From Heloderma charlesbogerti (taxonomy: Eukaryota; Chordata; Lepidosauria; Squamata; Helodermatidae): a DNA stretch of 64,000 bases. Positions 6,825-64,000 of this stretch are shown piece after piece. Where the stretch lies: positions 410,124-474,123 of the forward strand of contig JANEZZ010001487.1 in NCBI GenBank assembly GCA_026122225.1. Direction: 5' to 3'. The notes beneath the pieces were generated by a model that searched no databases, had not been told where the DNA came from, and saw only the letters and a list, made by a program, of their open reading frames with translations. The position numbers and the translations under genes were made by a program. Every line of letters starts with the position of its first letter. The stretch's first letter is position 1.

Positions 6825-7911
6825 ATGCCGTGCAGGGCCACCCAAGACAGACAGGTCATGGCAGAGAGTTCTGACAAAATGTGGTCCGCTGGAGAAGGAA
6901 ATGGCAACCCACTCCAGTATTCTTGCCAAGAAAACCCCATGGAACGTATCACAAGGCTAAAAGAGATGACACCGGAAGATGAGCCCCTCAGGTCGGAAGG
7001 TGTCCAATATACTACTGGGGAAGAGCAGAGGGTATTTCCAAGTAGCACCAGAAAGAGTGAAGCGGCTGGGCCAAACCTGAAAGGACACTCAGCTGTGGAT
7101 GTGTCTGGTGGTGAAAAGAAAGTCCGATGCTGTAAAGAACAATATTGTTTAGGAACCTGGAATGTCAGATCAATGAATCAAGGTAAGCTGGAGGTGGTCA
7201 AACATGAGATGGCAAGATTGAACATTGACATCTTGGGAACTAAAATGGACAAGCATGGGCAAATTTAATTCAGGTGACCATCATATCTACTACTGTGGGC
7301 AAGAATCCCTTAGAAGAAATGGAGCAGCACTCATAGTCAACAAAAGGGTGGGAAAAGCAGTACTGGGGTACAATCTCAAAAACAATAGAATTATCTCAGT
7401 ACGAATCCAAGGCAAACCATTCAACATCACAGTAATTCAAGTCTATACCCCAACCACTGATGCTGAAGAAGCTGAGGTTGATCAGTTCTATGAAGACCTA
7501 CAACACCTTCTAGAACTAACACCTAAAAAAGATGTCCTCTTCATCATAGGGGATTGGAATGCTAAAGTAGGGAGTCAAGAAATCACCGGGATAACAGGCA
7601 AGCATGGCCTTGGTGTGCAAAATGAAGCAGGACAAAGGTTAATAGAGTTTTGCCAAGAGAACACGCTGATCATAGCAAACACGCTTTTCCAACAGCACAA
7701 GAGGCGACTCTACACATGGACATCACCAGATGGTCAAAATCAAAATCAGATTGATTATGTCCTTTGCAGCCAAAGATGGAGAAGCTCTATACAGTCAGTA
7801 AAAACAAGACCTGGAGCTGACTGTGGCTCACATCATGATCTTCTTATTGCAATATTTCGGCTTAAATTGAAGAACGTCAGGAAAACACTAAACCATTCAG
7901 ATATGACCTAA
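6825..7911 (+). pseudogene. BovB ORF, N-terminus and AP-endonuclease domain (broken)
   Basis: The endonuclease would nick target DNA to prime reverse transcription. The frame starts MPCRATQDRQ and reads YCLGTWNVRSMNQGKLE, the start of the exonuclease-endonuclease fold, up to about 7268. A deletion near 7235 (relative to the copy at 62.5 kb) shifts the frame. It continues to 7911 with FIIGDWNAKVG (about 7540-7572), YTWTSPDG and QIDYVL. The catalytic SDH motif reads SHH here (CAT at 7831-7833, GAT in the copy at 63207). A stop closes it near 7909. Inactive. Confidence 0.9.
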
Positions 7912-8676
7912 ATCATAACCCTTATGAATATACAGTGGAGGTGAGGAATAGATTTCAGGCATTAGACCTGATAGACAGAGTGCCTGAGGAACTATGGACG
8001 GAGGTCCGTAACATTGTTCAGGACAGGAGGCAGCAACGAAATCCATCCCAAAGAAAAAGAAATGCCAGAAAGCAAAGTGGCTGTCTGATGAGGCTTTACA
8101 AGTAGCTCACGAAAGAAGGGAAGCGAAAAGCAAGGGAGAAAGGGGAAGATATATCCAACTGAATGCAGAGTTCCAGAGAATAGCAAGGAGAGACAAGAAG
8201 GCCTTCTTAAATGAACAATACAGAGAAACCGAGGAAAACAATAGAATGGGAAAGACTAGAGATCTTTTCAAGAAAATCGGAGATCTCAAGGGAACATTTT
8301 GTGAAAAGACGGGCATGATAAAGGACAAAGGCAGGGACCTAACAGAAGCAGATGAGATTAAGAAGAGGTGGCAAGAATACACAGAAGAACTATACAGGAA
8401 AGATCTGAATGTCCCTGATAGCCATGATAGTGCAGTCACTTGAGCCAGACATCCTAGAGATGTGGGCCGTAGTCAAGTGGGCCGTAGGAAGCATTACTAA
8501 CAACAAAGCTAGCAGAGATGACAGTATTCCAGCTGAGCTATTTAAGATCCTAAAAGATGATGCTGTTAAAGTGCTGCACTCAATATGCCAATGAATTTGG
8601 AACACTCAACAGTGGTCACAAGACTGGAAAAGGTCAGTTTATATTCCAATTCCAAAGAAGGGCAATGCCAAAGAGT
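7912..8676 (+). pseudogene. BovB ORF, linker between endonuclease and RT (broken)
   Basis: Homology to the 63.2-64.0 kb copy is continuous here but the frame shifts several times. Readable pieces are KTRDLFKKIGDLKGTF and EEIKKRWQEYTEELYRKD-like text at 8246-8443. SNNKASGDDSIPAELFK-like text follows near 8500-8590, where a TGA replaces a glutamine codon. The linker ends at the target site of the palindromic insert. Confidence 0.85.
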
Positions 8677-8684
8677 GCTCAAAC

Positions 8685-9646
8685 TAGGGATATACGAAAG
8701 TCACTTACCTTTTCGCAGCTTGGCTTCGTGGTGGGGGGGAGGTGCTTTGCTTCTCCCCCCGAAGTTCAGGTGAGGGGGGGGAGGCTTCCCGCCTCGCCCA
8801 GCCGAAATTCAGGCCGGGGGGGAGGCTTCCCGCCTCGCCTGGCCAAAATTCAGGCCAGGGAGAAGCGCCCTGTCTCCCCGGCTGTGAAACAAAAAGTTAA
8901 AAAAAAAAAAAAGACCCCGTGATAGGCTACATGATGATTTATGTAGCCTATCATGGCTAGATTTCCAAAGTCAGCCGTGATAGGCTACGTAAATCGTCAC
9001 GTAGCCTATCACGGGTGACTTTGGGGGGGGAAAAAAAAAAGCGCGTACGCAAATGGCGGCTCCCATGGGGACCGCCATTTGCGTTCCTTATTTTGGCACG
9101 TCTAGTCTACGTAAAGATTTACGTAGACTACGGCAAAAATAAGGGCATGCTATTTGCGTTGCCCTTATTTTCACCATAGTCTACGTAAATCTTTACGTAG
9201 ACTAGATGTGCCAAAATAAGGAACGCAAATGGTGGTCCCCATGGGAGCCGCCATTTGCGTACGCACTTTTTTTTTTTTCCAAAGTCACCCGTGATAGGCT
9301 ACGTGACGATTTACGTAGCCTATCATGGCTGACTTTGGAAATCTAGCCGTGATGGGCTACGTAAATCGTTACGTAGCCTATGCATGGGTTTGTGTGTGTT
9401 TTTTTTACTTTAGTTTTTTTTTTTGCAATGGTGGCGGTGGCAGCCGGTTGGGAGACCAGCCGCTGCCCCCGCCTGCAACGAACCGCCGCCGAACCGCCGC
9501 TGGGACCTGCCGCCGGGAGGGACATTTGCCAAAGGTAAGTCCCGTCCCGGGGGGGGGGCGGAGAATTTCACCACCGATTTCGGGGGGCCGAATGCGTTGG
9601 CGCTCGGCCCCCCAAAGATTCGGGGAGAAATTCTCCGCCATCCCTA
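8685..9646. mobile_element. hAT-like hierarchical palindrome, copy 1 (962 bp)
   Basis: It begins TAGGGATA and ends CATCCCTA. It is flanked by GCTCAAAC (8677-8684) and GCTCAAAT (9647-9654), an 8-bp duplication with one mismatch inside BovB. The central body (about 8886-9424) is an inverted repeat centred near 9150. It is built from smaller hairpins with stems GATAGGCTACGT/ACGTAGCCTATC, GCAAATGGCGGC/GCCGCCATTTGC and TAGTCTACGTAAA/TTTACGTAGACTA. The left arm has about 42-bp GC-rich tandem units, each ending GAARTTCAGG. The right arm ends in a hairpin around GGGGGGCCGA. No transposase ORF. Confidence 0.85.
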
Positions 9647-9654
9647 GCTCAAAT

Positions 9655-10911
9655 TACCATACAATTCCGCTCATTTCACATGCCAGCAAGGTGATGCTCA
9701 AAATCCTACAAGCTAGGCTTCAGCAGTATGTGAACCGAGAACTACCGGACGTACAAGCTGGGTTTCGAAGAGGTAGAGGAAATAGAGATCAAATCACCAA
9801 CATTCATTGGATCATGGAGAAAGCAAGACAATTCTAGAAAACCGTCTATTTCTGCTTCATTGACTACACTAAAGCCTTTGATTGTGTGGATCACAACAAA
9901 CTGTGGCAAATTCTGAAAGAGATGGGAGTACCAGACCACCTTACCTGTCTCCTGAGAAACCTGTATGAGGGTCAAGAAGCAACAGTAAGAACCAGACATG
10001 GAACAACCGATTGGGTCAAAATTGGGAAAGGAGTACGACAAGGCTGTATATTGTTGTCGCCCTGCTTATTTAACTCATATGCAGAGTCCATCATGAGAAA
10101 TGCCAGGTTGGATGAATCGCAGGTCGGAATTAAGATTGCTGGGAGAATTGTCAACAACCTCCGATATGCAGACGATACCACCCTAATGGCAGAAAGTGAA
10201 GAGGATCTAAACAGCCTCTTGTTGAGGGTGAAAGAGGAGAGTGCAAAAGCTGGTTTGAAACTCCACATTAACAAAACTAAGATCATGGCATCTGGCCCCA
10301 TCACTTCCTGGCATATAGAAAGGGAAGAAAGGGAAGCAGTGACAGATTTTATTTTCTTGGGCTCCAAGATCACCGCAGACGGTGACTGTAGCCATGAAAT
10401 TAAAAGACGCTTGCTCCTTATGGCAAACCTAGACAGCATAGTAAGAAGCAGAGACATCACCTTGCCGACAAAGGTCCGTCTAATCAAAGCTATGGTTTTC
10501 CCAGTAGTAACGTATGGCTGTGAGAGCTGGACTATAAGGAAGGCTGAGCGCCGAAGAATTGATGCTTTCGAACTGTGGTGCTGGAGAAGACGCTTATGAG
10601 TCCTCTGGACTGCAAGGAGGTCAAATCAGTCCATCCTAAAGGAAATCAACCCTGACTGCTCATTGGAAGGACAGATACTGAAGCTGAAGCTCAAATATTC
10701 TGGCCACCTAATGAGAAGAGAAAACTCCCTGGAAAAGACCCTGATGCTGGGAAAGATTGAAGGCAAAAGGAGAAGGGGACAGGAGAGGATGAGATGGCTA
10801 GATAGCATCACCGATGCAATGAATATGAGCTTGAGCACACTCTGGGAGAGAGCGGAGGACAGGAAGGCCTGGCGTGCTATGGTCCATGGGGTCACGAAGA
10901 GTTGGACATGA
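9655..10911 (+). pseudogene. BovB reverse transcriptase and C-terminal part (broken)
   Basis: After the insert, RT resumes with KVMLKILQARLQQYVNRELPD and AGFRRGRGNRDQI. A TAG near 9835 interrupts it. It then reads FIDYTKAFDCVDH and from 9886 a 237-residue open stretch. This contains GVRQGC and the catalytic YADD (10165-10176). The C-terminal part reads YGCESWTIRKAERRRIDAFELWCWRR, then a frame shift leads into LKLKYSGHLMRRENSLEKTLMLGK (10663-10911). RT would copy the LINE RNA at the nicked target. The intact YADD shows decay mainly by stops and frameshifts. Confidence 0.93.
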
Positions 10912-18494: not shown

Positions 18495-19430
18495 TAGGGG
18501 TGCACGAAAGTCACTTACCTGGTCTCGCAGCTTGCTTCGCGGTGGGGGGGAGGCGCTTTGCTGCTTTCCCCGAAGTTCAGGCCGGGGGGGGGGAGGCTTC
18601 CCTCCTCGCCCGGCCGAAATTCAGGCTGGGGAGGAGGCGCCTCGCCTCGCCCGGCTGCGAAATAAAAAGTTAAAAAAAACAACAACACGCCCCCATGATA
18701 GGCTACGTGACGATTTACGTAGCCTATCACGGCTAGATCTGCAAAGTCAGCCACGATAGGCTACGTTAATCGTCACGTAGCCTATCACGGGTGACTTAAA
18801 AAAAAAAAAAAAGCACGTATGCAAATGGCGGCCCCCATAGGGAGCCGCCATTCGCGTTCCTTATTTGGTCGCTGTAGTCTACGTAAATCTTTACGTAGAC
18901 TACGGCAAAAATAAGGGCAACGCAAATAGCGTTGCCCTTATTTTCGCCGTAGTCTACGTAATCTTTACGTAGACTACAGCGACCAAATAAGGAACGCGAA
19001 TGGCAGCTCCCTATGGGGGCCGCCATTAGGCGTACACACTTTTTTTTTTTTTTTAAGTCACCCGTGATAGGCTACGTGACGATTAACATAGCCTATCACT
19101 GCTGACTTTGCAAATCTAGCCGTGATAGGCTACGTTAATCGTCACGTAGCCTATCACGGGGGCATTTTTTTTTTTTTTTACTTTTCTTGGAATGGCGGTG
19201 GCGGCAGCCGGTTGAAAGACCGGCTGCCGCCCCTGCCCCTGTCGAAGACCTGCCAAACCGCCACCGGGACCCGCTGCCGGGAGGGACATTCGTGAAAGGT
19301 AAGTCCCATCTCGGGGGGGGGGGCGGGGGCGGGGGGGGCAGAGAATTTCTCCCCGAAACTACTTCGGGGGGCCGAATACGTTGGCACTCGGCCCCCCGAA
19401 GTTTCGGGGAGAAATTCTCCCCCATCCCTA
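18495..19430. mobile_element. hAT-like hierarchical palindrome, copy 3 (936 bp, best preserved)
   Basis: Begins TAGGGGTGCACGAAAGTC and ends CATCCCTA. It is flanked by exact TTCTCAAG at 18487-18494 and 19431-19438. The body (about 18659-19192) is an inverted repeat centred on GGGCAACGCAAATAGCGTTGCCC near 18926. Each arm holds, in mirror order, an ACGTAGACTA hairpin, a GCAAATGGCGGC hairpin, an A/T tract and two GATAGGCTACGT hairpins. The left arm has three GC-rich tandem units. The right end has a 32-bp-stem hairpin (19341-19419). No transposase. Confidence 0.9.
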
Positions 19431-19438
19431 TTCTCAAG

Positions 19439-20810
19439 GCTAACACACCCAGTTCTTTCAGTCTCTCCTCATAGGACTTTGTTTCCAGTCCCCTGATCAT
19501 CTTCGTTGCCCTCCTCTGAACCCTCTCCAGTTTGTCTGCATCCTTCTTAAAGTGTGGTGTCCAGAACTGGACATAGTACTCAAGATGAGGCCTAACCAGT
19601 GCTGAGTAAAGGGGAACTAGTACTTCACATGATTAATGCAGCCCAAAATAGTATTTGCCTTTTTTGCAGCGACATCACATTGTTGGCTCATATTCAGCTT
19701 GGAAATCAACAACAATTCCAAGATCCTTCTGGCTTGTAGTGTTGTTGAGCCACGTATCCCCATCTTGTAACTGAATTTGGTTTCTTTTTCCTAGGTGCAG
19801 AACTTGGCATTTATCCCTGTTAAATCTCATTCTGTTGTTTTCTGCCCAGAGCTCCAGCCTATCAACATCATTTTGAATTTTGTTTCTGTCTTCCAACGTA
19901 TTAGCTATCCTGCCCAATGTTGTGTCATCTGCAAATTTAATAAGCATTAATAAAAATGTTGAAGAGCACTGGGCCCAGGACTGAGCCCTGCAGTACCCCA
20001 CTCATTACCTCTCCCCAGTTGGAGAAGATCCCATTGATAAGCACTCTTTGAGTCCGATTCTGTAGCCAACTGTGGATCCACCGGATCATTGTTTTGTCTA
20101 GCCCACTTTGAGCTAGTTTGCTCATCAGGATATCATGGGGCACTTTGTCGAAAGCTTTGCAGAAGTCGAGGTATATTATGTTCACAACATTCCCACAGTC
20201 CACAAGGGAGATTACCTGATCAAAAAATGAGATCAGATTCGTCTGGCATGATTTGTTCTTGACCAATCCATGTTGGCTTCAAGTAGTCACTGCATTGTTT
20301 TCAAGGTACTTACAGACTGATTGCTTTATAATCTGCTCCAGAATTTTCCCAGGGGTTGATGTCAGACTGACTGGTCTGTAGTTCCCAGGTTCCTTCTTTT
20401 TGCCCTTTTTGAAGATAGGGACATTAGCTCTCTTCCAGTTATCTGGAACTTCACCCATCCTCCATAATTTCTCAAAGGTAATAGACAGTGGTTCTGAGAG
20501 TACTTCTGCCAGTTCCTTTATTACTGTAGGATGCAGTTCATCTGGCCCTGAAGATTTGAACTCATTCAAAGTAATTAGGTGTTCCTTGACCATAGATCTG
20601 CCCCTTCAGCCTGTATTTCATCTTTGCCAGCAGGGTCATAAACCCTTTTTTGGGAGAAGACTGAGCCAAAGTAGGAATTGAGCACCTCTGCCTTTTCTTT
20701 GTCATCTGTTATCATTTTGTCATCCTTATTTAATAACCATTTATTTCCTCTGTCTTTTACTATGCACGTATCTGAAGGAAGCCTTTTGTTGCTTTTAGCA
20801 TCCCTCGCTA
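19439..20810 (-). pseudogene. CR1 reverse transcriptase (broken)
   Basis: The minus-strand reading runs from 20593: SGPDELHPTVIKELAEVL, NYRPVSLTSTPGKILEQII, then [31 protein letters not shown] and the catalytic FADD (19924-19935). DKCQVLHLGK follows. The motif order is that of CR1 RT. A frame shift joins the pieces near 19940-20000 and another lies near 20270. RT would copy CR1 RNA; this copy is dead. Confidence 0.93.
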
Positions 20811-21711: not shown

Positions 21712-22740
21712 TCATTCTCAGCTTTAGCCTTCCTGACACCATCACTGCAATTCTGTGCTACCTGCCTGTACTCATCCTTTGTTGCTTGGCCTTCCTTCCA
21801 CTTCCTATATGTGTGCTTTTTTTGTTGTTTTCAAGTCATCTCTAAGCTTTTTGTGAAGCCACTTGGCTTCTTCTGTTGCCTTCCACCTTTTTTTCTTGTT
21901 GGAATTGTTTGTAATTTTGCCTTTAGAATTTCCTTTTTTAAAAACTCCCACCCATCATGGACTCCTTTTCTTGTTAGAGTTGCTTGCCATGGGACCTTAC
22001 TTATCATTGTTCTGAGTTTATTAAAATTGGCTTTCCTAAAACCCAGGGCACGCGTTTGGCTACACTCGGCTTTTGCTTCCTTTAGAACCAAGAACTCAAG
22101 TATAACATGGTTGCTTTCCCCCAGAGTTTCCATAACTGCTACTTTATCCGCTAAGTCATCTCTGTTGGTTAGGCTCAAGTCAAGGATAGCCAGTCCTCAA
22201 GTTCCTTCCTCCACTTTCTGTAGGAGGAAGTTATCAGCAACACAAGTCAGAAATTTCTCAGAGGGGCTACGTTTTGCAGAATTTGTCTCCCAACAAATAT
22301 CAGGGAAATTGAAGTTCTCCATTACTACTACATCATGCTTCCTTAAAACATTGGCTATTTGCTTTTCAAAAGTTTCATCCTTGTCTTCTCCTTGATTGGA
22401 TGGCTGGTAGTAGACTCTGACCACCATGTTCCTTTTATTCTTTGCTGCATTTATTTTAACCCAGATGCTCTTGATGGGGCTACCAAGCTCATCCTCTTGT
22501 ATTTCTATGCAGAGATATGTATTTTAAACATATAGTGCTACTCCACTTCCCTTTCAGTTCCTTTTGTTCTTTTTGAACAAGTTATATCCTTCAATTGCTG
22601 TATTCCAGTCATGGGAGTCATCCCACCAAGTTTCAGTTATACCTATCAAGTCATAATTTCTCTCCAGTATTAAGAGTTCAAGTTTGTTCTGTTTGTTTTG
22701 CATACTCTGGGCATTAGTATATAGACATCAAAGACCATGT
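21712..22740 (-). pseudogene. CR1 endonuclease domain and following region (broken)
   Basis: Minus-strand reading: [27 protein letters not shown] and then [17 protein letters not shown] (22197-22427). The second CR1 copy reads MGDFNFPDI at the same place, so the catalytic GD is replaced here. Next comes LVLKEAKAECSQTRALGFRK and a basic stretch (21831-22178). Inactive. Confidence 0.88.
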
Positions 22741-23105
22741 GCTTTATAGTCTGGCTCAATTCCTACATGTTTTTGAAGACTGTTATTGGGCACTGTTAGA
22801 GCTGTTCTCTCCGTTGTGGTGCAGCATGAGCCTTTGTCCATTGTTACCCCCAACTTTACGTCTCTCTTCCCCGTAGGATTCAGTTTAAAGCCCTCCTGAT
22901 GAAGTTCTTCATGCTGTGGCCAAACACATTATTCCCAGGCTTTGTGAGGTGCAACCCGTCCCTTGCCAACAGCCCATCTTCCAGGAAGTATAGCCCGTGG
23001 TCCCAGAATCCAAATCTCTCTCGTCGGCACCACCTTCGTAGCCAGTCATTCACCTGGAGTATTTTTCTTTCCCTTTCTATCTCTTCTTACTACTGGAAGG
23101 ATGGA

Positions 23106-25565: not shown

Positions 25566-26182
25566 AACCCACAGTAGATAATTAGATTACTGCAAATTAG
25601 ATTACTCTATGTGGGGCTGCCTTTGGAGGCAGTTCAGAAATTGCAGCTCGTGCAAACTGTGGCAGCCAGATTAATAACAGGGACTAGAAGGTTAGGCCGA
25701 TTTATAAAGCCCTACATGACTCGGGACCACAATACCTGATGGAGTGCCTCTCCCAACATGAGCCTACCCATACTCTTATGCTCAGCATCCAAGGTCCTCC
25801 TCCGGGTCCCTCCTCCGGGTCCCTCCTACGAGGGAGGCTCGGAAGGTGGCAACAAGGGAGAGGGCCTTCTCAGAAGTGGCTCCCCAACTGTGGAATGATG
25901 TCCCTGGTGAGGTCCGCCTGATGCCAACATGGTAATCTTTTCAGCACTAGGTTAAGGCCTATCTCTTTTCTCAGGCATTTGGCAGAATATGATGCGTTTT
26001 TAATCAGTCCTGGATCTGTCTTATGGTTATGGCTGATTGCTCAATGTTGTTCTTAAATATATGTTGTTTTATGTAAATGGTTTTTAAACTTGTATACTGT
26101 ATTTTAATGGGGGGTTGCTATAATGTAATGTTTTTAATCTATGTAAATCCCTCAGAGACCCTCCACCATGGGGCGCTATAGA
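25566..26182 (+). mobile_element. L2-clade LINE 3' end with internal deletion
   Basis: Starts with an LDYCN-encoding block that is duplicated (AAATTAGATTACT twice at 25578-25610), then LQLVQT-like and degraded text. A 3' UTR follows with GGGGCGCTATAGAAATG. It abuts the BovB at 26183, which landed in or created the (GTT)n tail. Confidence 0.7.
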
Positions 26183-27176
26183 AATGTTGTTGTTGTTGTT
26201 AAGTCGTTCAGTTGTGTCCGACTCTTCGTGACCCCATGGACCATAGCACGCCAGGCCTTCCTGTCCTGCGCTCTCTCCCGGAGCGTGGTCAAGTTCATAT
26301 TCATTGCAACGGTGATGCTATCTAGCCATCTCATCCTCTGCCGTCCCCTTCTCCTTTTGCCTTCAGTCTTTCCCAGCATCAGGGTCTTTTCCAGGGAGTT
26401 TTCTCTTCGCATTAGGTGGCCAAAATATTGGAGCTTTAGCTTCAGGATCTGTCCTTCCAATGAGCACTCAGGGTTGATTCCCTTTAGGATTGACTGATTG
26501 GACCTCCTTGCAGTCCAGGGGACTCGTAAGAGTCTTCTCCAGCACCACAGTTCGAAAGCATCAATGCTTCAGCGCTCAGCCTTCCTTATAGTCCAGCTCT
26601 CACAGCCATACATTACTACTGGGAAAACCATAGCTTTGATTAGACGGGCCTTTGTCGGCAAGGTGATGTCTCTGCTTCTTACTATGCTGTCTAGGTTTGC
26701 CATAGCTTTCCTCCCAAGGAGCAAGCGTCTTTTAATTTCATGGTTACAGTCACCGTCTGCAGTGATCTTGGAGCCCAAGAAAATAAAATCTGTCACAGCT
26801 TCCATTTCTTCCCCTTCTATATGCCAGGAAGTGATGGGGCCAGATGCCATGATCTTCATTTTTTTAATGTGGAGTTTCAAACCAGCTTTTGCACTCTCCT
26901 CTTTCACCCTCAACAAGAGGCTCTTTAGATCCTCTTCGCTTTCTGCCATTAGGGTGGTATCATCTGCATATCGGAGGTTGTTGATAATTCTCCCAGCAAT
27001 CTTAATTCCGACCTGTGATTCATCCAACCCGGCATTTCTCATGATGTACTCTGCATATAAGTTAAATAAGCAGGGTGACAATATGCAGCCTTGTCGTACT
27101 CCTTTCCCAGTTTTGAACCAATCGGTTGTTCCATGTCTGGTTCTTACTGTTGCTTCTTGACCCTCATACAGGTTTC
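26183..27176 (-). mobile_element. BovB LINE, 5'-truncated, antisense
   Basis: Minus-strand BovB from within RT (27176) to the 3' end (26183). The opposite strand starts with (GTT)n, then AAGTCGTTCAGTTGTGTCC. It keeps a 171-codon stretch with YADDTTLMAESEEDL, SWHIEGEEMEAVTDF and YGCESWTIRKAER (27081-26569). The upstream boundary is an abrupt break after the LYEGQE-encoding segment, as expected for aborted reverse transcription. Confidence 0.93.
26569..27081 (-). pseudogene. BovB reverse transcriptase fragment
   Basis: Covers the catalytic YADD motif through the thumb and C-terminal YGCESWTIRKAER. It lacks endonuclease and N-terminal RT. Open for 170 residues, which suggests a fairly young insertion. 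Confidence 0.9.
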
Positions 27177-36402: not shown

Positions 36403-36822
36403 ATTTTGTTTCTGTGCCCAATGATTTGGGGTGGAATATTTTCCAATACGGCAAACGTTCTAGAAAAATTTACAGTGTGTAATTTTTCCGTGGAAAATTT
36501 CCACTTCATAAGTTCATTAGTAACAATGAATAATGCCAACTGCAACCTTAATATCAGGCAAGCTTGCCAGTTTCTAAGTTGTAATTAATGTTTTTCTGGT
36601 GATTATCCCTAGCAAGCATTTGAGAGAATACATACATGTCAATGAAATACATTTACATCTCAGTGTAATATGGAACTAATAGGTAGTGATAGCAAAACTG
36701 AAAGTACCCCAGCACCCTCAGTGGAAGAGAGCCAAATGTTGAAATAGTTGAGTGGCTGTCAGCGCATCAAGCACAGTTCTTTGGGTTGCTAAAATTAATT
36801 AGTGAGTCAACATTTTCCAGCA
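36403..36822. other. non-coding DNA
   Basis: No recognised feature. Confidence 0.4.
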
Positions 36823-37771
36823 CCAGACATGGAACAACCGAGTGGTTCAAAATTGGGAAAGGAGTACGACAAGGCTGCATATTGTCACCCTGCTTATTTA
36901 ACTTATATGCAGAGTACATCATGAGAAACGCCGGGTTGGATGAATCGCAGGTCGGAATTAAGATTGCTGGGAGAATTATCAACAACCTCAGATACGCAGA
37001 CGATACCACCCTACTGGCAGAAAGCGAAGAGGATCTAAAGAGCTTCTTGTTGAGGGTGAAAGAGGAGAGTGCAAAAGCTGGTTTGAAACATTAAAAAAAA
37101 ACGAAAATCATGGCATCTGGCCCCATCACTTCCTGGCATATGGAAGGGGAAGAAATGGAAGCAGTGACAGATTTTACTTTCTTGGGCTCCAAGATCAACG
37201 CAGACGGTGACTGTAGCCATGAAATTAAAAGACGCTTGCTCCTTGGGAGGAAAGCTATGGCAAACCTAGACAGCATAGCAAGAAGCAGAGACATCACCTT
37301 GCCAACAAAGGTCCATCTAATCAAAGCTATGGTTTTCCCAGTAGCAACGTATGGCTGTGAGAGCTGGACTATAAGGAAGGCTGAGCGCCGAAGCATTGAT
37401 GCTTTCGAACTGTGGTGCTGGAGAAGACTCTTACAAGTCCCCTGGACTGCAAGGAGGTCAAATCAGTCAGTCCTAAAGGAAATCAACGCTGAGTGCTCAT
37501 TGGAAGGACAGATACTGAAGCTGAAGCTCAAACATTTTGGCCACCTAATGTGAACAGAAATCTCTCTGGAAAAGACCCTGATGCTGGGAAAGACTGAAGG
37601 CAAAAGGAGAAGGGGATGGCAGAGGATGAGATGGCTAGATAGCATCACTGATGCAATGAATATGGACTTGAGCACGCTCCGGGAGAGAGTGGAGGACAGG
37701 AAGGCCTGGCGTGCTATGGTCCATGGGGTCATGAAGAGTCGGACACGACTGAACAACAACAACAACAACAA
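36823..37771 (+). mobile_element. BovB LINE, 5'-truncated
   Basis: Begins abruptly in RT (TRHGTTEWFKIGKGVRQGC) and runs to the 3' end GGGTCATGAAGAGTCGG followed by (AAC)n. A small insertion at about 37093 (A run) and a stop at 37551 break the frame. Same truncation class as 26183-27176 but opposite strand. Confidence 0.93.
36828..37553 (+). pseudogene. BovB reverse transcriptase fragment
   Basis: Two open pieces (36786-37094 and 37110-37553) together cover GVRQGC, YADDTTLLAESEEDL, ITSWHMEGEEMEAVTDF and YGCESWTIRKAERRSIDAFELWCWRR. They are separated by an A-run frameshift. Confidence 0.9.
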
Positions 37772-38008
37772 AACAATGTCAGGGAACTACATGCTATTGT
37801 CTTTAATTTTATACAAGTATTCTAATAAAAAAACTTCTATATAACATTTAAATCATAGTAAGTATGCTTTAATTTTCCTCCTCATATATTTCAGGTCAAA
37901 TACTTAGGGTATATCAGGACAAAAAATTAACATAGAGTACTTTGTTGTTTACAAAATACAAGTAGAATAAACATGCTAAATTAGATCATTCTCTAAGGGT
38001 GAAAACCA
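37772..38008. other. non-coding DNA
   Basis: AT-rich gap, nothing recognised. Confidence 0.4.
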
Positions 38009-39171: not shown

Positions 39172-40079
39172 TAGGGATGGCGGAGAATTCCGCTACAGAC
39201 CCCAATGAGGCCGGATTCTAAAGAATCTAAGACCTTTATGGCCGCAAATGGCATACTGGATGCCATTTGCATCTGGAGACAGTCCCCCTCAGCCAGCTAT
39301 ATGGCAATGGCAGCCATAACGCTGGTGCTCCAGAGCTGGCTGGCAGCTCCGCAAGATTGCCACAAGCAGGATCCGACTCCAGATGGGTCCTCAGGGAGGC
39401 AGAGGTGAGTGGTGCCATTCCGCCACGGACTCTGGGGGGCCGGATTCTTTAGAATTCTTTAGAATCCGGCCCCCCAGAGTCCGTGGCGGAATGGCACCAC
39501 TCACCTCTGCCTCCCTGAGGACCCATCCGGAGCCGGAGCCTCCTCATGGCAATCCTGCGGAGCCACCGGCCAGCTCCGGAGCACCAGCGATAAGGCTGCC
39601 ATTGCTGTATCACTGGCTGAGGGGGACTGTCTCCAGATGCAAATGGCGTCCAGTATGCCATTTGCGGCCGTAAAGGTCTTAGATTAAGGTAAATGCAGCC
39701 ATAAATGGCTGCATTTAGCTTAAACTCAGACCTTTATGGCCGCAAATGGCGTCTGTTATGCCATTTGCGTCCCTGTTTTTTCATGCGATAGGCTACACAT
39801 TTGTATTTACGTAGATATTTTCATAGCCTATCACGTGAATAAACAGGGATGCAAATGGCGTAGCAGACGCCATTTACAGGCGGATCCCTTCCTGCAGTGA
39901 GTGCTCAGCTATACGGCACGGCAATGGTGGCCATATCACTTGCTGTATGGAGCCGTCCCTACTGGACTTCACGGGGTCGCGGGGGGGGGAGCAGTCCGTT
40001 CTGCCACAGATTCTGGGGGGCTGGATTCTAAAGAATCTGGCCTCACTGGAGTCCATGGCGGATTTCTCCGCCATCCCTA
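39172..40079. mobile_element. hAT-like palindrome, copy 5 (908 bp, chimeric)
   Basis: Both ends are the same end type: TAGGGATGGCGGAGAATTCC at the left, CGGATTTCTCCGCCATCCCTA at the right. An extra-long inverted repeat (about 39220-39690) is centred at about 39456 in ATTCTTTAGAATTCTTTAGAAT. A second module at 39730-39890 has the GATAGGCTAC hairpin. No 8-bp duplication is present (GGGACAAC against ATCTCTGT). The two flanks come from different parts of CR1, so this is probably a recombinant of two insertions. Confidence 0.8.
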
Positions 40080-40384
40080 ATCTCTGTCAGTTAGGATCAA
40101 GTCAAGGATAGCTGATCCTCTAGTTCCTTCCTCTACTTTCTGTAGGAGGAAGTAATCCGCCACACAAGTCAGGAGTTTCCTGGAGGGGCCATGTTTTGCA
40201 GAATTTGTCTCCCAGCAAATATCGGGGAAATTGAAGTCCCCCATTACTACTACATCATGCTTCCTTGAAACATTGGGTATTTGCTTTTCAAACGTTTCAT
40301 CCTCATCTTCTCCTTGATTGGGTGGCCGGTAGTAGACTCCGACCACCAGGTTCCTTTTATTTTTTGATCCATTCATTTTAATGG
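40080..40384 (-). pseudogene. CR1 endonuclease fragment
   Basis: Minus strand: [35 protein letters not shown] and [13 protein letters not shown]. The catalytic GDFN motif is intact, unlike in the first CR1. The N-terminal side is cut by the sense CR1 insert. Confidence 0.88.
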
Positions 40385-40893
40385 AGTACTGTGTCCAGTT
40401 CTGGGCACCACACTTTAAGAAGGATGCAGACAAACTGGAGAGGGTTCAGAGGACGGCAACAAAGATGATCGGGACTGGAAACAAAGCCCTATGAAGAGAG
40501 ACTGAAAGAACTGGGCATGTTTAGCCTTGAGAAGAGAAGACTGAGGGGAGATATGATAGCACTCTTCAAGTACTTGAAAGGTTGTCACAGAGAAGAAGGC
40601 CAGGATCTCTTCTTGATCATCCCAGAGTGCAGGACACAGAATAATGGGCTCAAGTTACAGGAAGCCAGATTCCGGCTGAACATCAGGAAAAACTTCCTGA
40701 CTGTAAGAGCAATACAACAATGGAACCAATTACCTGGGGAAGTGGTGGGCTCTCCCACACTGGAGGCCTTCAAGACGAGGCTGGACAGCCATTTGTCAGG
40801 GATGCTCTGACTTGGATTCCTTCATTGAGCAGGGGGTTGGACTCGATGGCCTTGTAGGCCCCTTCCAACCCTACTATTCTATGATTCTATGAA
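40385..40893 (+). mobile_element. CR1 3' end, sense, inserted in antisense CR1
   Basis: From TGGAGTACTGTGTCCAGTTC to the terminal TATTCTATGATTCTATGA. It encodes the last CR1 residues: LEKRRLRGDMIALFKYLKG and ARFRLNIRKNFLTVRAIQQWNQLP. The host CR1 resumes at CCAGATGCTCTTGATGG. This creates opposite-strand CR1 text back to back. Confidence 0.9.
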
Positions 40894-53282: not shown

Positions 53283-53737
53283 TAGTCTAAAGAATCCGGC
53301 CCCTTGGAGTCTGTGGCGGAACGGACCACCCACCTCCGCCACCCCATGAAGTTGCCCTGGGACAGATCCTACCTGCCACCGGCCAGGTCTGGTCCATCCG
53401 CTTCCGTCCGCTGCTGGTCTGCAGAAGAAAATGGCGTCCAGCTTAGCAGACGCCATTTGCGCCCCTGCTCTTTGCTGTGATAGGCTACGTAAAGATTTAC
53501 GTAGCCTATCACGGCAAAGAGCAGGGACGCAAATGGTGTCTGCTATCCTGGACACCATTTGTGTCTGCAGACCGGCAGCAGACGGAAGTCCGCCAGCGGC
53601 CGGAGCTGGTCAGCGGCTCCGCAGACTCACCACGGAGCAGAGCCGGCCAGCAAGGATTCCAGGGGGGAGGGATGGATCACCTCCCCACCCTGCGGACCCC
53701 CCACGGACTCCATGTAAGGGGGTTTCATACATCCCTA
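53283..53737. mobile_element. hAT-like palindrome, copy 7 (short subfamily, left end damaged)
   Basis: The right end is intact: GGTTTCATACATCCCTA. The left starts at TCTAAAGAATCCGGCCCC without the TAGGGATG end. A central hairpin (GATAGGCTACGTAAAGATTT..CCTATC, about 53478-53514) is bracketed by TTTGCTGTG/CACGGCAAA, AGAGCAGGGACGCAAATGG and their inverted partners. No target duplication. Left flank is an M9-type repeat (53240-53282). Confidence 0.82.
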
Positions 53738-59055: not shown

Positions 59056-59166
59056 TCTATGTAGAGTAGACCCATTAAAATGAATGGGACTTAAACTAGT
59101 TACAACTAACTTAAGTCCCATTCATTTCAAGGGGTCTATTCTTTATAGGACTAATATTGGATACTA
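59056..59166. mobile_element. palindromic repeat family M9
   Basis: GTAGAGTAGACCCATT and AATGAATGGGACTTAA face TTAAGTCCCATTCATT and GGGGTCTATTC. Ends TTGGATAC. Confidence 0.75.
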
Positions 59167-61900: not shown

Positions 61901-62135
61901 AGCAGCAGCAGCACCACTTGAAGACAAAATAAATATACGTTGAATCAGCTGCACAGAAGGAGGCTGAACAGGAGCAAAACACTAAGCTGGTGGGGAGGGA
62001 TCTTTCAGAAAACATTGGGAGCAGATTCAGTCCAAACCTGAGGGGGCTTAGCCAAGGTGACTTTCAGTCCCACCCAAAACACCACTCTAGTGCAGCCTCC
62101 CCAAATTGCATTGATGCACCCAGCCCTCCCCTTCA
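61901..62135. other. non-coding DNA
   Basis: Short gap. GAACAGGAGCAAAACAC near 61968 resembles 13858-13875. Confidence 0.4.
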
Positions 62136-64000
62136 TGGATAATTGCCTTGTTGTGGCGAAGGGGCTTGCGTAACTCAGTGAAGCCATAAGCTATGCCGTG
62201 CAGGGCCACCCAAGACGGACAGGTCATGGCAGAGAGTTCTGACAAAATGTGGTCCACTGGAGAAGGAAATGGCAACCCACTCCAGTATTCTTGCCAAGAA
62301 AACCCCATGGAACGTATCACAAGGCTAAAAGAGATGACGCCAGAAGATGAGCCCCTCAGGTCGGAAGGTGTCCAATATGCTACTGGGGAAGAGCAGAGGG
62401 TATTTCCAAGTAGCGCCAGAAAGAGTGAAGTGGCTGGGCCAAACCCGAAAGGACACTCAGCTGTGCATGTGTCTGGTGGTGAAAAGAAAATCCGATGCTG
62501 TAAAGAACAATATTGTTTAGGAACCTGGAATGTCAGATCAATGAATCAAGGTAAGCTGGAGGTGGTCAAACATGAAATGGCAAGATTGAACATCGACATC
62601 TTGGGAATCAGCTAACTCAAATGGACAGGCATGGGCGAATTTAATTCAGGTGACCATCATATCTACTATTGTGGGCAAGAATCCCTTAGAAGAAATGGAG
62701 TAGCACTCATAGTCAACAAAAGGGTGGGAAAAGCAGTACTGGGGTACAATCTTAAAAATGATAGAATAATCTCAGTACGAATCCAAGGCAAACCATTCAA
62801 CATCACAGTAATTCAAGTCTATGCCCCAACCACTGAGGCCGAAGAAGCTGAGGTTGATGGGTTCTATGAAGAACTACAACACCTTCTAGAACTAACACCA
62901 AAAAAAGATGTCCTCTTCATCATAGGGGATTGGAATGCTAAAGTAGGAAGTCAAGAAATCACCAGGATAACAGGCAGGCATGGCCTTGGTGTACAAAATG
63001 AAGCAGGACAAAAGCTAATAGAGTTTTGCCAAGAGAACATGCTGATCATAGCAAACACTCTTTTCCAACAGCACAAGAGGCGACTCTACACATGGACGTC
63101 ACCAGATGGTCAATATCGAAATCAGATTGATTATGTCCTTTGCAGCCAAAGATGGAGAAGCTCCATACAGTCAGTAAAAACAAGACCTGGAGCTGACTGT
63201 GGCTCAGATCATGAGCTGCTTCTTGCAAAATTTCGGCTTAAATTGAAGAATGTCGGGAAAACCACTAAACCGTTCAGGTATGACCTAAATCATATCCCTG
63301 ATGAATATACAGTGGAGGTGAGGAATAGATTTCAGGGATTAGACAGAGTGCCTGAGGAACTATGGACGGAGGTCCGTAACATTGTTCAGGAGGCAGCAAC
63401 GAAATCCATCCCAAAGAAAAAGAAATGCAAGAAAGCAAAGTGGCTGTCTGATGAGGCTTTACAAGTAGCTCACGAAAGAAGGGAAGCGAAAAGCAAGGGA
63501 GAAAGGGGAAGATATACCCAACTGAATGCAGAGTTCCAGAGAATAGCAAGGAGAGACAAGAAGGCCTTCTTAAATGAACAATGCAAAGAAATCGAGGAAA
63601 ACAACAGAATGGGAAAGACTAGAGATCTCTTCAAGAAAACTGGAGATCTCAAGGGAACGTTTTGTGCAAAGACGGGCATGATAAAGGACCAAGAAGGCAG
63701 GGACCTAACAGAAGCAGATGAGATTAAGAAGAGGTGGCAAGAATACACAGAAGAACTATACAGGAAAGATCTGAATGTCCCTGATAGCCATGATAGTGCG
63801 GTCACTGAACTTGAGCCGGACATCCTCGAGAGTGAAGTCAAGTGGGCCTTAGGAAGCATTAGTAACAACAAAGCTAGCGGAGATGACAGTATTCCAGCCG
63901 AGCTATTTAAAATCCTAAAAGATGATGCTGTTAAAGTGCTGCATTCAATATGCCAACAAATCTGGAACACTCAACAGTGGCCACAAGACTGGAAAAGGTC
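62136..64000 (+). mobile_element. BovB LINE, 5' part, runs off the window
   Basis: Starts about CATGGATAATTGCCTTG and continues collinear with 6783-8684 to the window end without internal insertions. Covers the ORF start, endonuclease and linker; RT would follow beyond the window. Its reading frame is far better preserved than in the 6.8-kb copy. Confidence 0.95.
62193..64000 (+). pseudogene. BovB ORF with a single in-frame stop, incomplete at window edge
   Basis: The frame opens at MPCRATQDGQ (62193) and reads YCLGTWNVRSMNQGKLE to DILGIS. TAA at 62613-62615 interrupts it. The same frame then stays open for 461 codons to base 64000. It contains GDWNAKVG (about 62925-62948), YTWTSPDG, QIDYVL (about 63123-63140) and an intact SDH catalytic triplet (63204-63212). 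The linker follows (KTRDLFKKTGDLKGTF, EEIKKRWQEYTEELY-like). Relative to 7.9 kb it lacks nine bases near 63340, in frame. The next ATG after the stop is 62628. The element may otherwise be intact; RT is not visible here. Confidence 0.93.

Follow-up and report, generated by a model that had tools for sequence, protein, structure and literature searches.

The 936-bp element at positions 18495-19430 (plus strand), here called C3, is one of seven related copies (C1-C7) in a window of 64,000 nucleotides, which is the whole stretch of DNA that was analysed. A comparison of the two palindromic arms within and between copies supports the conclusion that the inner palindrome of this family was re-made after the copies split. 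We favour the view, as rather probable, that the copies form a non-autonomous and probably hAT-type MITE family with a zigzag body, whose palindrome would be renewed by strand switching or arm copying in source elements.

C3 begins with TAGGGGTG, ends with CATCCCTA and is flanked on both sides by the exact 8-bp duplication TTCTCAAG, just as an earlier note on this DNA had stated; its 8-bp terminal inverted ends are identical at seven of eight positions. The inverted repeat of roughly 530 bp that the same note placed at 18659-19192 was recovered by a blastn self-match in the window at 18665-19185, where the core matches itself inverted over 90.3% of 525 columns. This match corresponds to positions 171-691 of the 936 of the element, so that the palindrome ends about 170 and 245 bp before the termini, and the two end regions are not joined by any match.

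The arms had been described as series of hairpins, and the order M M G T c T G M M was obtained for the core by motif search. The arms of the G hairpin are like GCAAATGGCG, a variant of it (c) occupying the centre, while those of the M hairpin are like GATAGGCTACGTAAA and T is a variant of M (TAGTCTACGTAAA). From left to right, the core contains the left M pair at 18693-18790 (M at about 18693-18732 and 18751-18790), the left G hairpin (GCAAATGGCGGC..., motif search) at 18821-18855, the left T hairpin at 18874-18903, the central hairpin at 18908-18944 with a perfect stem of 16 nt, the right T hairpin at 18949-18977 (stem scan), the right G hairpin at about 18996-19029 (approximate limits) and the right M pair at 19062-19159 (M at about 19062-19100 and 19120-19159). 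A further hairpin, absent from the earlier note, lies outside the core at 19332-19428 and is called the right-end hairpin. Adjacent M hairpins are mirror images of each other (90% for 19061-19110 against 19111-19160, 91% for 18692-18734 against 18749-18791), and the palindrome of C3 has three levels: the single hairpin, the mirrored M pair and the entire core.

Nine perfect stems of at least 11 nt (loop 3-20) are found in C3, seven in the core and two in the right-end part, against none across 30 dinucleotide shuffles of the element; a chance origin of the stems is therefore rejected. Over the window, 32 of the 36 such stems fall inside the 5.5 kb of the family. Outside it, a perfect 17-nt hairpin was seen at 59078-59127, within a short repeat similar to the left flank of C6. 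The RNA fold of 18495-19438, whose computation had been proposed in the earlier note, reaches -687.4 kcal/mol, far below 20 shuffles (mean -335.1, sd 9.5).

The copies were located by blastn of C3 against the window, plus a scan for ends and hairpins that gave the limits of one copy and one more copy; together they occupy 5,489 of the 64,000 bases. C1 (8685-9646, plus strand) is 78.9% identical to C3 over 992 columns and is bordered by GCTCAAAC and GCTCAAAT, which agree at 7/8 positions, as do GTTCTGGT and GTTCTGGA around C2 (17015-17863, minus strand), which has two extra bases at one end. C4 (20819-21703, plus strand) has ACCTCAGC duplicated on both sides. C5 (41078-41575, plus strand) and C6 (53287-53737, minus strand) are shorter relatives: C5 has GTTACACC duplicated on both sides, and C6 has lost its right end, its boundary at 53287 being set by eye. 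C7 (39172-40079, plus strand) carries right-type sequence at both ends, shows no duplication (GGGACAAC and ATCTCTGT) and contains a palindrome at 39224-39685. The 8-bp duplications are thus exact in C3, C4 and C5 and match at 7/8 positions in C1 and C2, and the five copies that have them are 498-962 bp long. The two-level palindrome had been said to be conserved between copies, and this is borne out with copies inside the window: among the seven, the hairpins do not differ randomly.

Insertion is further documented by two paralogous empty sites. Once joined, the flanks of C3 align to an unbroken LINE copy, 40384-40725 (93.3%), and those of C5 to 22458-22846 (87.9%), both matches spanning the junction; for the other five copies, the joined-flank search gave no such site in the window, except for a self-match of C4. 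The LINEs around the copies look like what we take to be CR1 and BovB, and the frames 7222-10911, 26176-27174, 36702-37844 and 62087-63970 resemble BovB-type LINE proteins, C1 sitting in one of them. The host is probably a squamate. One frame in the C1 flank gives a reverse transcriptase score under the Pfam cut-off (E 0.0006, 20 bits against 29.6).

The module order found in C3 is also that of C1 (motif search). By the same search C2 reads G M G T c T G M M, and C4 reads G M G T c T G M once completed by eye, its last M being damaged and three of the four arms of its T stems having become TATCTTA(C/T)G. G M G is the order in both C5 and C6, C5 having parts of further G hairpins as well, and C7 contains several G, one damaged M and one hairpin type not seen in the other copies. 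Two hairpin types are therefore common to the copies and largely alternate, in arrays three to nine hairpins long; when M and T are counted as one type, the inner arrays alternate. By eye, the spacers are CCCTGCTCTTT in C5 and C6 against CCTTATTTT... in C1-C4, and both sets are mirrored. A CArG-like reading of one C3 spacer was dropped because C1 and C2 lack this spacer. In C2 and in C4, mirror symmetry is absent from the outer parts. The left outer module is M-M in C1 and C3, mirroring the right one, and G-M in C2 and C4: the left outer arm of C1 agrees with its own right arm at 111/137 positions and with the left arm of C2 at 67/137, and the left arms of C2 and C4 agree at 84/116. One of the two left outer states, either of which may be the older, has replaced the other.

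The main evidence comes from the inner arms of C1-C4, the only four alignable copies, which were aligned as eight sequences with no fold used. If the copies had decayed freely from one palindromic master, differences within and between copies would be equal on average. Within a copy, the number of columns at which the inner arms differ is 5 (C1), 7 (C2), 8 (C3) and 15 (C4). The same arm compared between copies differs, for left and right respectively, at 9 and 10 columns for C1/C2, 14 and 18 for C1/C3, 18 and 16 for C2/C3, 32 and 35 for C1/C4, 33 and 31 for C2/C4, and 31 and 37 for C3/C4. Arms are closer within a copy than between copies in five of the six copy pairs (bootstrap P <=0.0005, columns being treated as independent), and the excess for C1/C2 is not significant (P 0.075). 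In a tree of the inner arms, those of C3 are joined (94%), as are those of C4 (100%), those of C1 are set apart (77%) and those of C2 are not joined. Since inner arms are more alike within copies than between them, the symmetry was re-made after the lineages split. One palindromic master followed by simple decay is rejected by this test as a full account, and parts of C1 and C3 would fit it.

Homogenisation of the arms is patchy and is carried by the G hairpin and the G-T spacer. In the G hairpin, the two arms of C3 agree at 37/41 positions, against 35/40 and 33/41 with the corresponding arms of C1, and in the G-T spacer at 16/16 against 12/17 and 12/17; the G loops and the G-T spacer are copy-specific yet alike across the arms, including a base missing in C3. 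Other segments behave differently. In the T hairpin, the same arms of C1 and C3 agree at 25/27 and 27/28 positions, against 27/28 and 24/28 for the own arms of each copy; the values are 17/17 and 14/16 against 13/17 and 15/17 in the T-centre spacer, and 121/140 and 101/127 against 111/137 and 106/140 in the outer M-M part. As these three segments show no own-arm excess in C1 and C3, homogenisation there predates the C1/C3 split or is absent. The right-end hairpin was used as a control: its own arms differ at 13/36 (C1), 11/36 (C2) and 14/36 (C4) positions, more than the same arms between copies (6/35 for the left arms of C1 and C2, 3/34 for the right arms of C1 and C3), which implies that the arms are older than the copies there.

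Two details of C3 have the appearance of single events. The left arm of its right-end hairpin is nearest to its own right arm: 7/39 positions differ, whereas 10/39 separate it from the left arm of C1, 11/39 from that of C2 and 10/39 from the right arm of C1. Both arms contain a TCTCCCCGAA tract, and the part of the left arm from 19346 on is more like its own right arm than like the left arms of other copies, which is a local event. Moreover, the 2-nt loop of the left T hairpin is TC in C3, where C1 has GA and where the palindrome requires GA. This loop looks inverted, in a manner that may be compared with the 2-bp spacer inversions of yeast, and it is one case.

The symmetry was most likely re-made in source elements, through strand switching or conversion of one arm by the other; both this cause and its place of action are inferred. 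In the process that we propose, the array would consist of short units laid alternately forwards and backwards, which would make the unit boundaries hairpins and the whole a palindrome. A DNA polymerase working on a source element, during replication or the repair of an excision gap, would switch strand at a hairpin, after which one arm would be copied from the other; such copying would lengthen the array or overwrite tracts patchily, and the palindrome would be renewed. If, as we assume, the transposase needs only the ends, palindromic bodies would be tolerated and would spread, and each inserted copy would then decay. Template switching has been described as creating perfect stems (PMC8794818), as well as homogenising arms and inverting 2-bp spacers in yeast (PMC8604942), and Galileo offers a described case of transfer from repeat to repeat within a single element (PMC4168063). 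The earlier note had attributed the maintenance of the shape to transposition or to a hairpin RNA. That the inner palindrome was re-made after the copies split is supported by the arm test, and a process of DNA copying, which may or may not be tied to transposition, fits better than an RNA because loops, spacers and an indel are common to the arms and individual tracts seem to have been overwritten.

Selection on a folded molecule, either a long hairpin RNA or a cruciform used for transposition, with changes in pairing compensated singly, would be another way to keep the arms alike, and the greater conservation of stems than of loops and spacers leaves room for it as an unlikely but live explanation. 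In the local stems, 145 of 206 gap-free columns are invariant, against 53 of 134 in loops and spacers (61 of 114 and 106 of 218 in the two ends), and the predicted fold is very stable. At the level of the large palindrome, 33 of 156 gap-free pairs have changed on both sides and 40 of 156 are broken in at least one copy; in the local structure, 25 of 217 pairs have changed on both sides, against a shuffle mean of 10.8, with none of 500 shuffles as high and slid controls at 3-10. Both of these counts, however, are biased towards pairing, since the fold behind them was itself predicted from these sequences. Furthermore, the loops of the local hairpins, which are unpaired at that level, are also common to the arms, the right-end hairpin has been left imperfect in C1, C2 and C4, and Rfam at gathering thresholds gives no match in the window.

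We consider it improbable, too, that inverted duplication of a half-element gave rise to each subfamily a single time and that decay followed, with no continuing homogenisation. The short and long arrays, with their different, mirrored spacers, speak for such repeated fresh origins, and the arm differences that C1 and C3 have in common, in the T-centre spacer and the outer arms, are those to be expected of two copies of one decaying palindrome. Against this, C1-C3 have the same inner module order, but in the G hairpin and G-T spacer the agreement is within copies, and C3 does not agree with the others; the right-end tract of C3 is a local event; and a fresh origin still requires strand switching as its source. 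Finally, it is very unlikely that the stems are putative protein-binding sites (for the transposase, or for YY1 in the case of GCAAATGGCGGC, which we take to resemble YY1 sites) multiplied by selection for mobility or expression. In favour of this, the stem motifs recur in 7/7 copies, exact or mismatched, and vary less than the spacers; against it, the common spacers and loops are left unexplained.

C7 differs from the other copies. By eye it runs backward, forward, backward and forward, two of its reversals falling at the apex of the right-end hairpin, and its ends are a matching 56 nt, unlike those of C3. Its palindrome at 39224-39685 has 21 mismatches in 231 pairs, and a loop of 12 nt separates perfect arms of 67 nt. 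This zigzag with its perfect arms speaks for strand switching; the depletion of mismatches towards the centre is modest (P 0.015), and the perfect arms could be an artefact of assembly or of a fold-back read. The flanks correspond to two stretches of the LINE in which C4 lies, 20356-20441 and 22157-22357, and by arithmetic, with C4 subtracted and the left flank itself interrupted, the host LINE has lost about 0.8 kb. Given its two right-type ends and the lack of a duplication, C7 probably arose by rearrangement in place, as has been proposed for one Tm1 copy (PMC3169594). The hairpin not seen in other copies lies at 39690-39717 (TAAATGCAGCCA...TGGCTGCATTTA). The end of C6 at 53287, set by eye, falls close to the apex of the right-end hairpin, which is also where C7 reverses.

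GGTRAGT motifs, which are presumably splice-donor-like, occur 12 times in the 5,489 bases of the family and 9 times in the other 58,511, the motif having been picked after it was seen. C3 has GGTAAGT near both ends (18513-18519, minus strand, and 19298-19304, plus strand), and the outward orientation of these motifs is found near both ends in C1, C3 and C4 and near the right end only in C2. GGTGAGT lies near the left end of C5, and internal GGTRAGT copies are present in C5, C6 and C7. These motifs may act as splice-donor-like sites or as transposase sites.

A palindrome left alone decays, and families that stay palindromic therefore need a restoring process. We tentatively suggest, as a possibility that is far from assured, that the family represents a type of DNA transposon in which strand switching at the element's own hairpins makes the body grow and renews it, with arrays going from three to nine hairpins, tracts being overwritten and subfamilies changing their mirrored spacers in step. 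If true, families of this type would preserve a natural record of template switching in a vertebrate germ line, and would show a way for MITEs to grow. Because such an element is multicopy, has many mirrored positions and can be dated by its own decay, the rate and tract length of strand switching in that germ line could be measured from it. If the arms were transcribed, the arrays could also supply long double-stranded RNA.

As to classification, the label "hAT-like" used in the earlier note stands in part: the 8-bp duplications (three exact, two with 7/8), the short TAGGG/CAGGG ends and the two empty sites speak for it, but membership is not proven because no transposase was found. Pfam identified neither a hAT domain nor any other domain in ten chosen frames over six copies. 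An 8-bp target-site duplication is given as a mark of hAT elements (PMC3517528, PMC11008031), together with terminal inverted repeats of 5-27 bp (PMC3517528) or 15 bp (PMC11008031); the TAGGGATG-type ends of 8 bp, which match at 7/8 positions in C3 and 8/8 in C2 and C4, are inside the first range and short of the second. TA at positions 4-5, as in the Buster-type target nnnTAnnn (PMC3517528), is found in 0/5 duplications, and the family is not of the Buster target type. The copies are short and non-coding, with terminal inverted repeats and duplications, and the family is a MITE by its size, its ends and the absence of recognised domains; a hAT-type MITE is the most likely filing, hAT being suggested by duplications and ends. 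A terminal foldback element was rejected, the long inverted repeats of C3 stopping short of the ends. The exact M hairpin pattern gave 0 matches in viral and prokaryotic genome contigs, and that of the G hairpin 0 in viral contigs. In the titles and abstract starts of open-licence literature, no palindromic hAT array in reptiles is described among the matches listed. A Dfam entry for the family is quite possible, and would lessen the novelty of the family but not that of the arm test.

Among known systems, the Drosophila hAT MITE Mar (PMC3517528) is similar in its 8-bp duplications, its short ends (CAG(G/A)GGTAGGC), its length under 1 kb and its lack of a transposase of its own, but the available text describes no palindromic body for it, and its nnnTAnnn target is absent from our family. 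Galileo, a foldback-like element of the P superfamily (PMC4168063), has long inverted repeats of variable length, and an addition to one of them can pass to its partner; its repeats, however, are terminal, whereas the palindrome of C3 is internal. The nematode Mutator/foldback element Tm1 (PMC3169594) also has composite inverted repeats, and one of its copies resembles C7 in that both ends carry one and the same motif and a duplication is absent, which is explained there by crossover between copies; it differs in its 9-bp duplications, its terminal repeats of direct short units and its Mutator-type transposase. Bacterial BIMEs (PMC2817692) contain regularly spaced palindromic units in alternating orientation, although they are built of REPs associated with a tyrosine transposase and are unrelated. 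Template-switch mutations (PMC8794818, PMC8604942), as reported in RNA genes and yeast coding sequence rather than in a transposon body, provide parallels to perfect stems formed in one event, arm homogenisation and 2-bp spacer inversion. In its way of working, the family, best filed as a hAT-type MITE, would resemble a foldback or zigzag element that strand switching renews.
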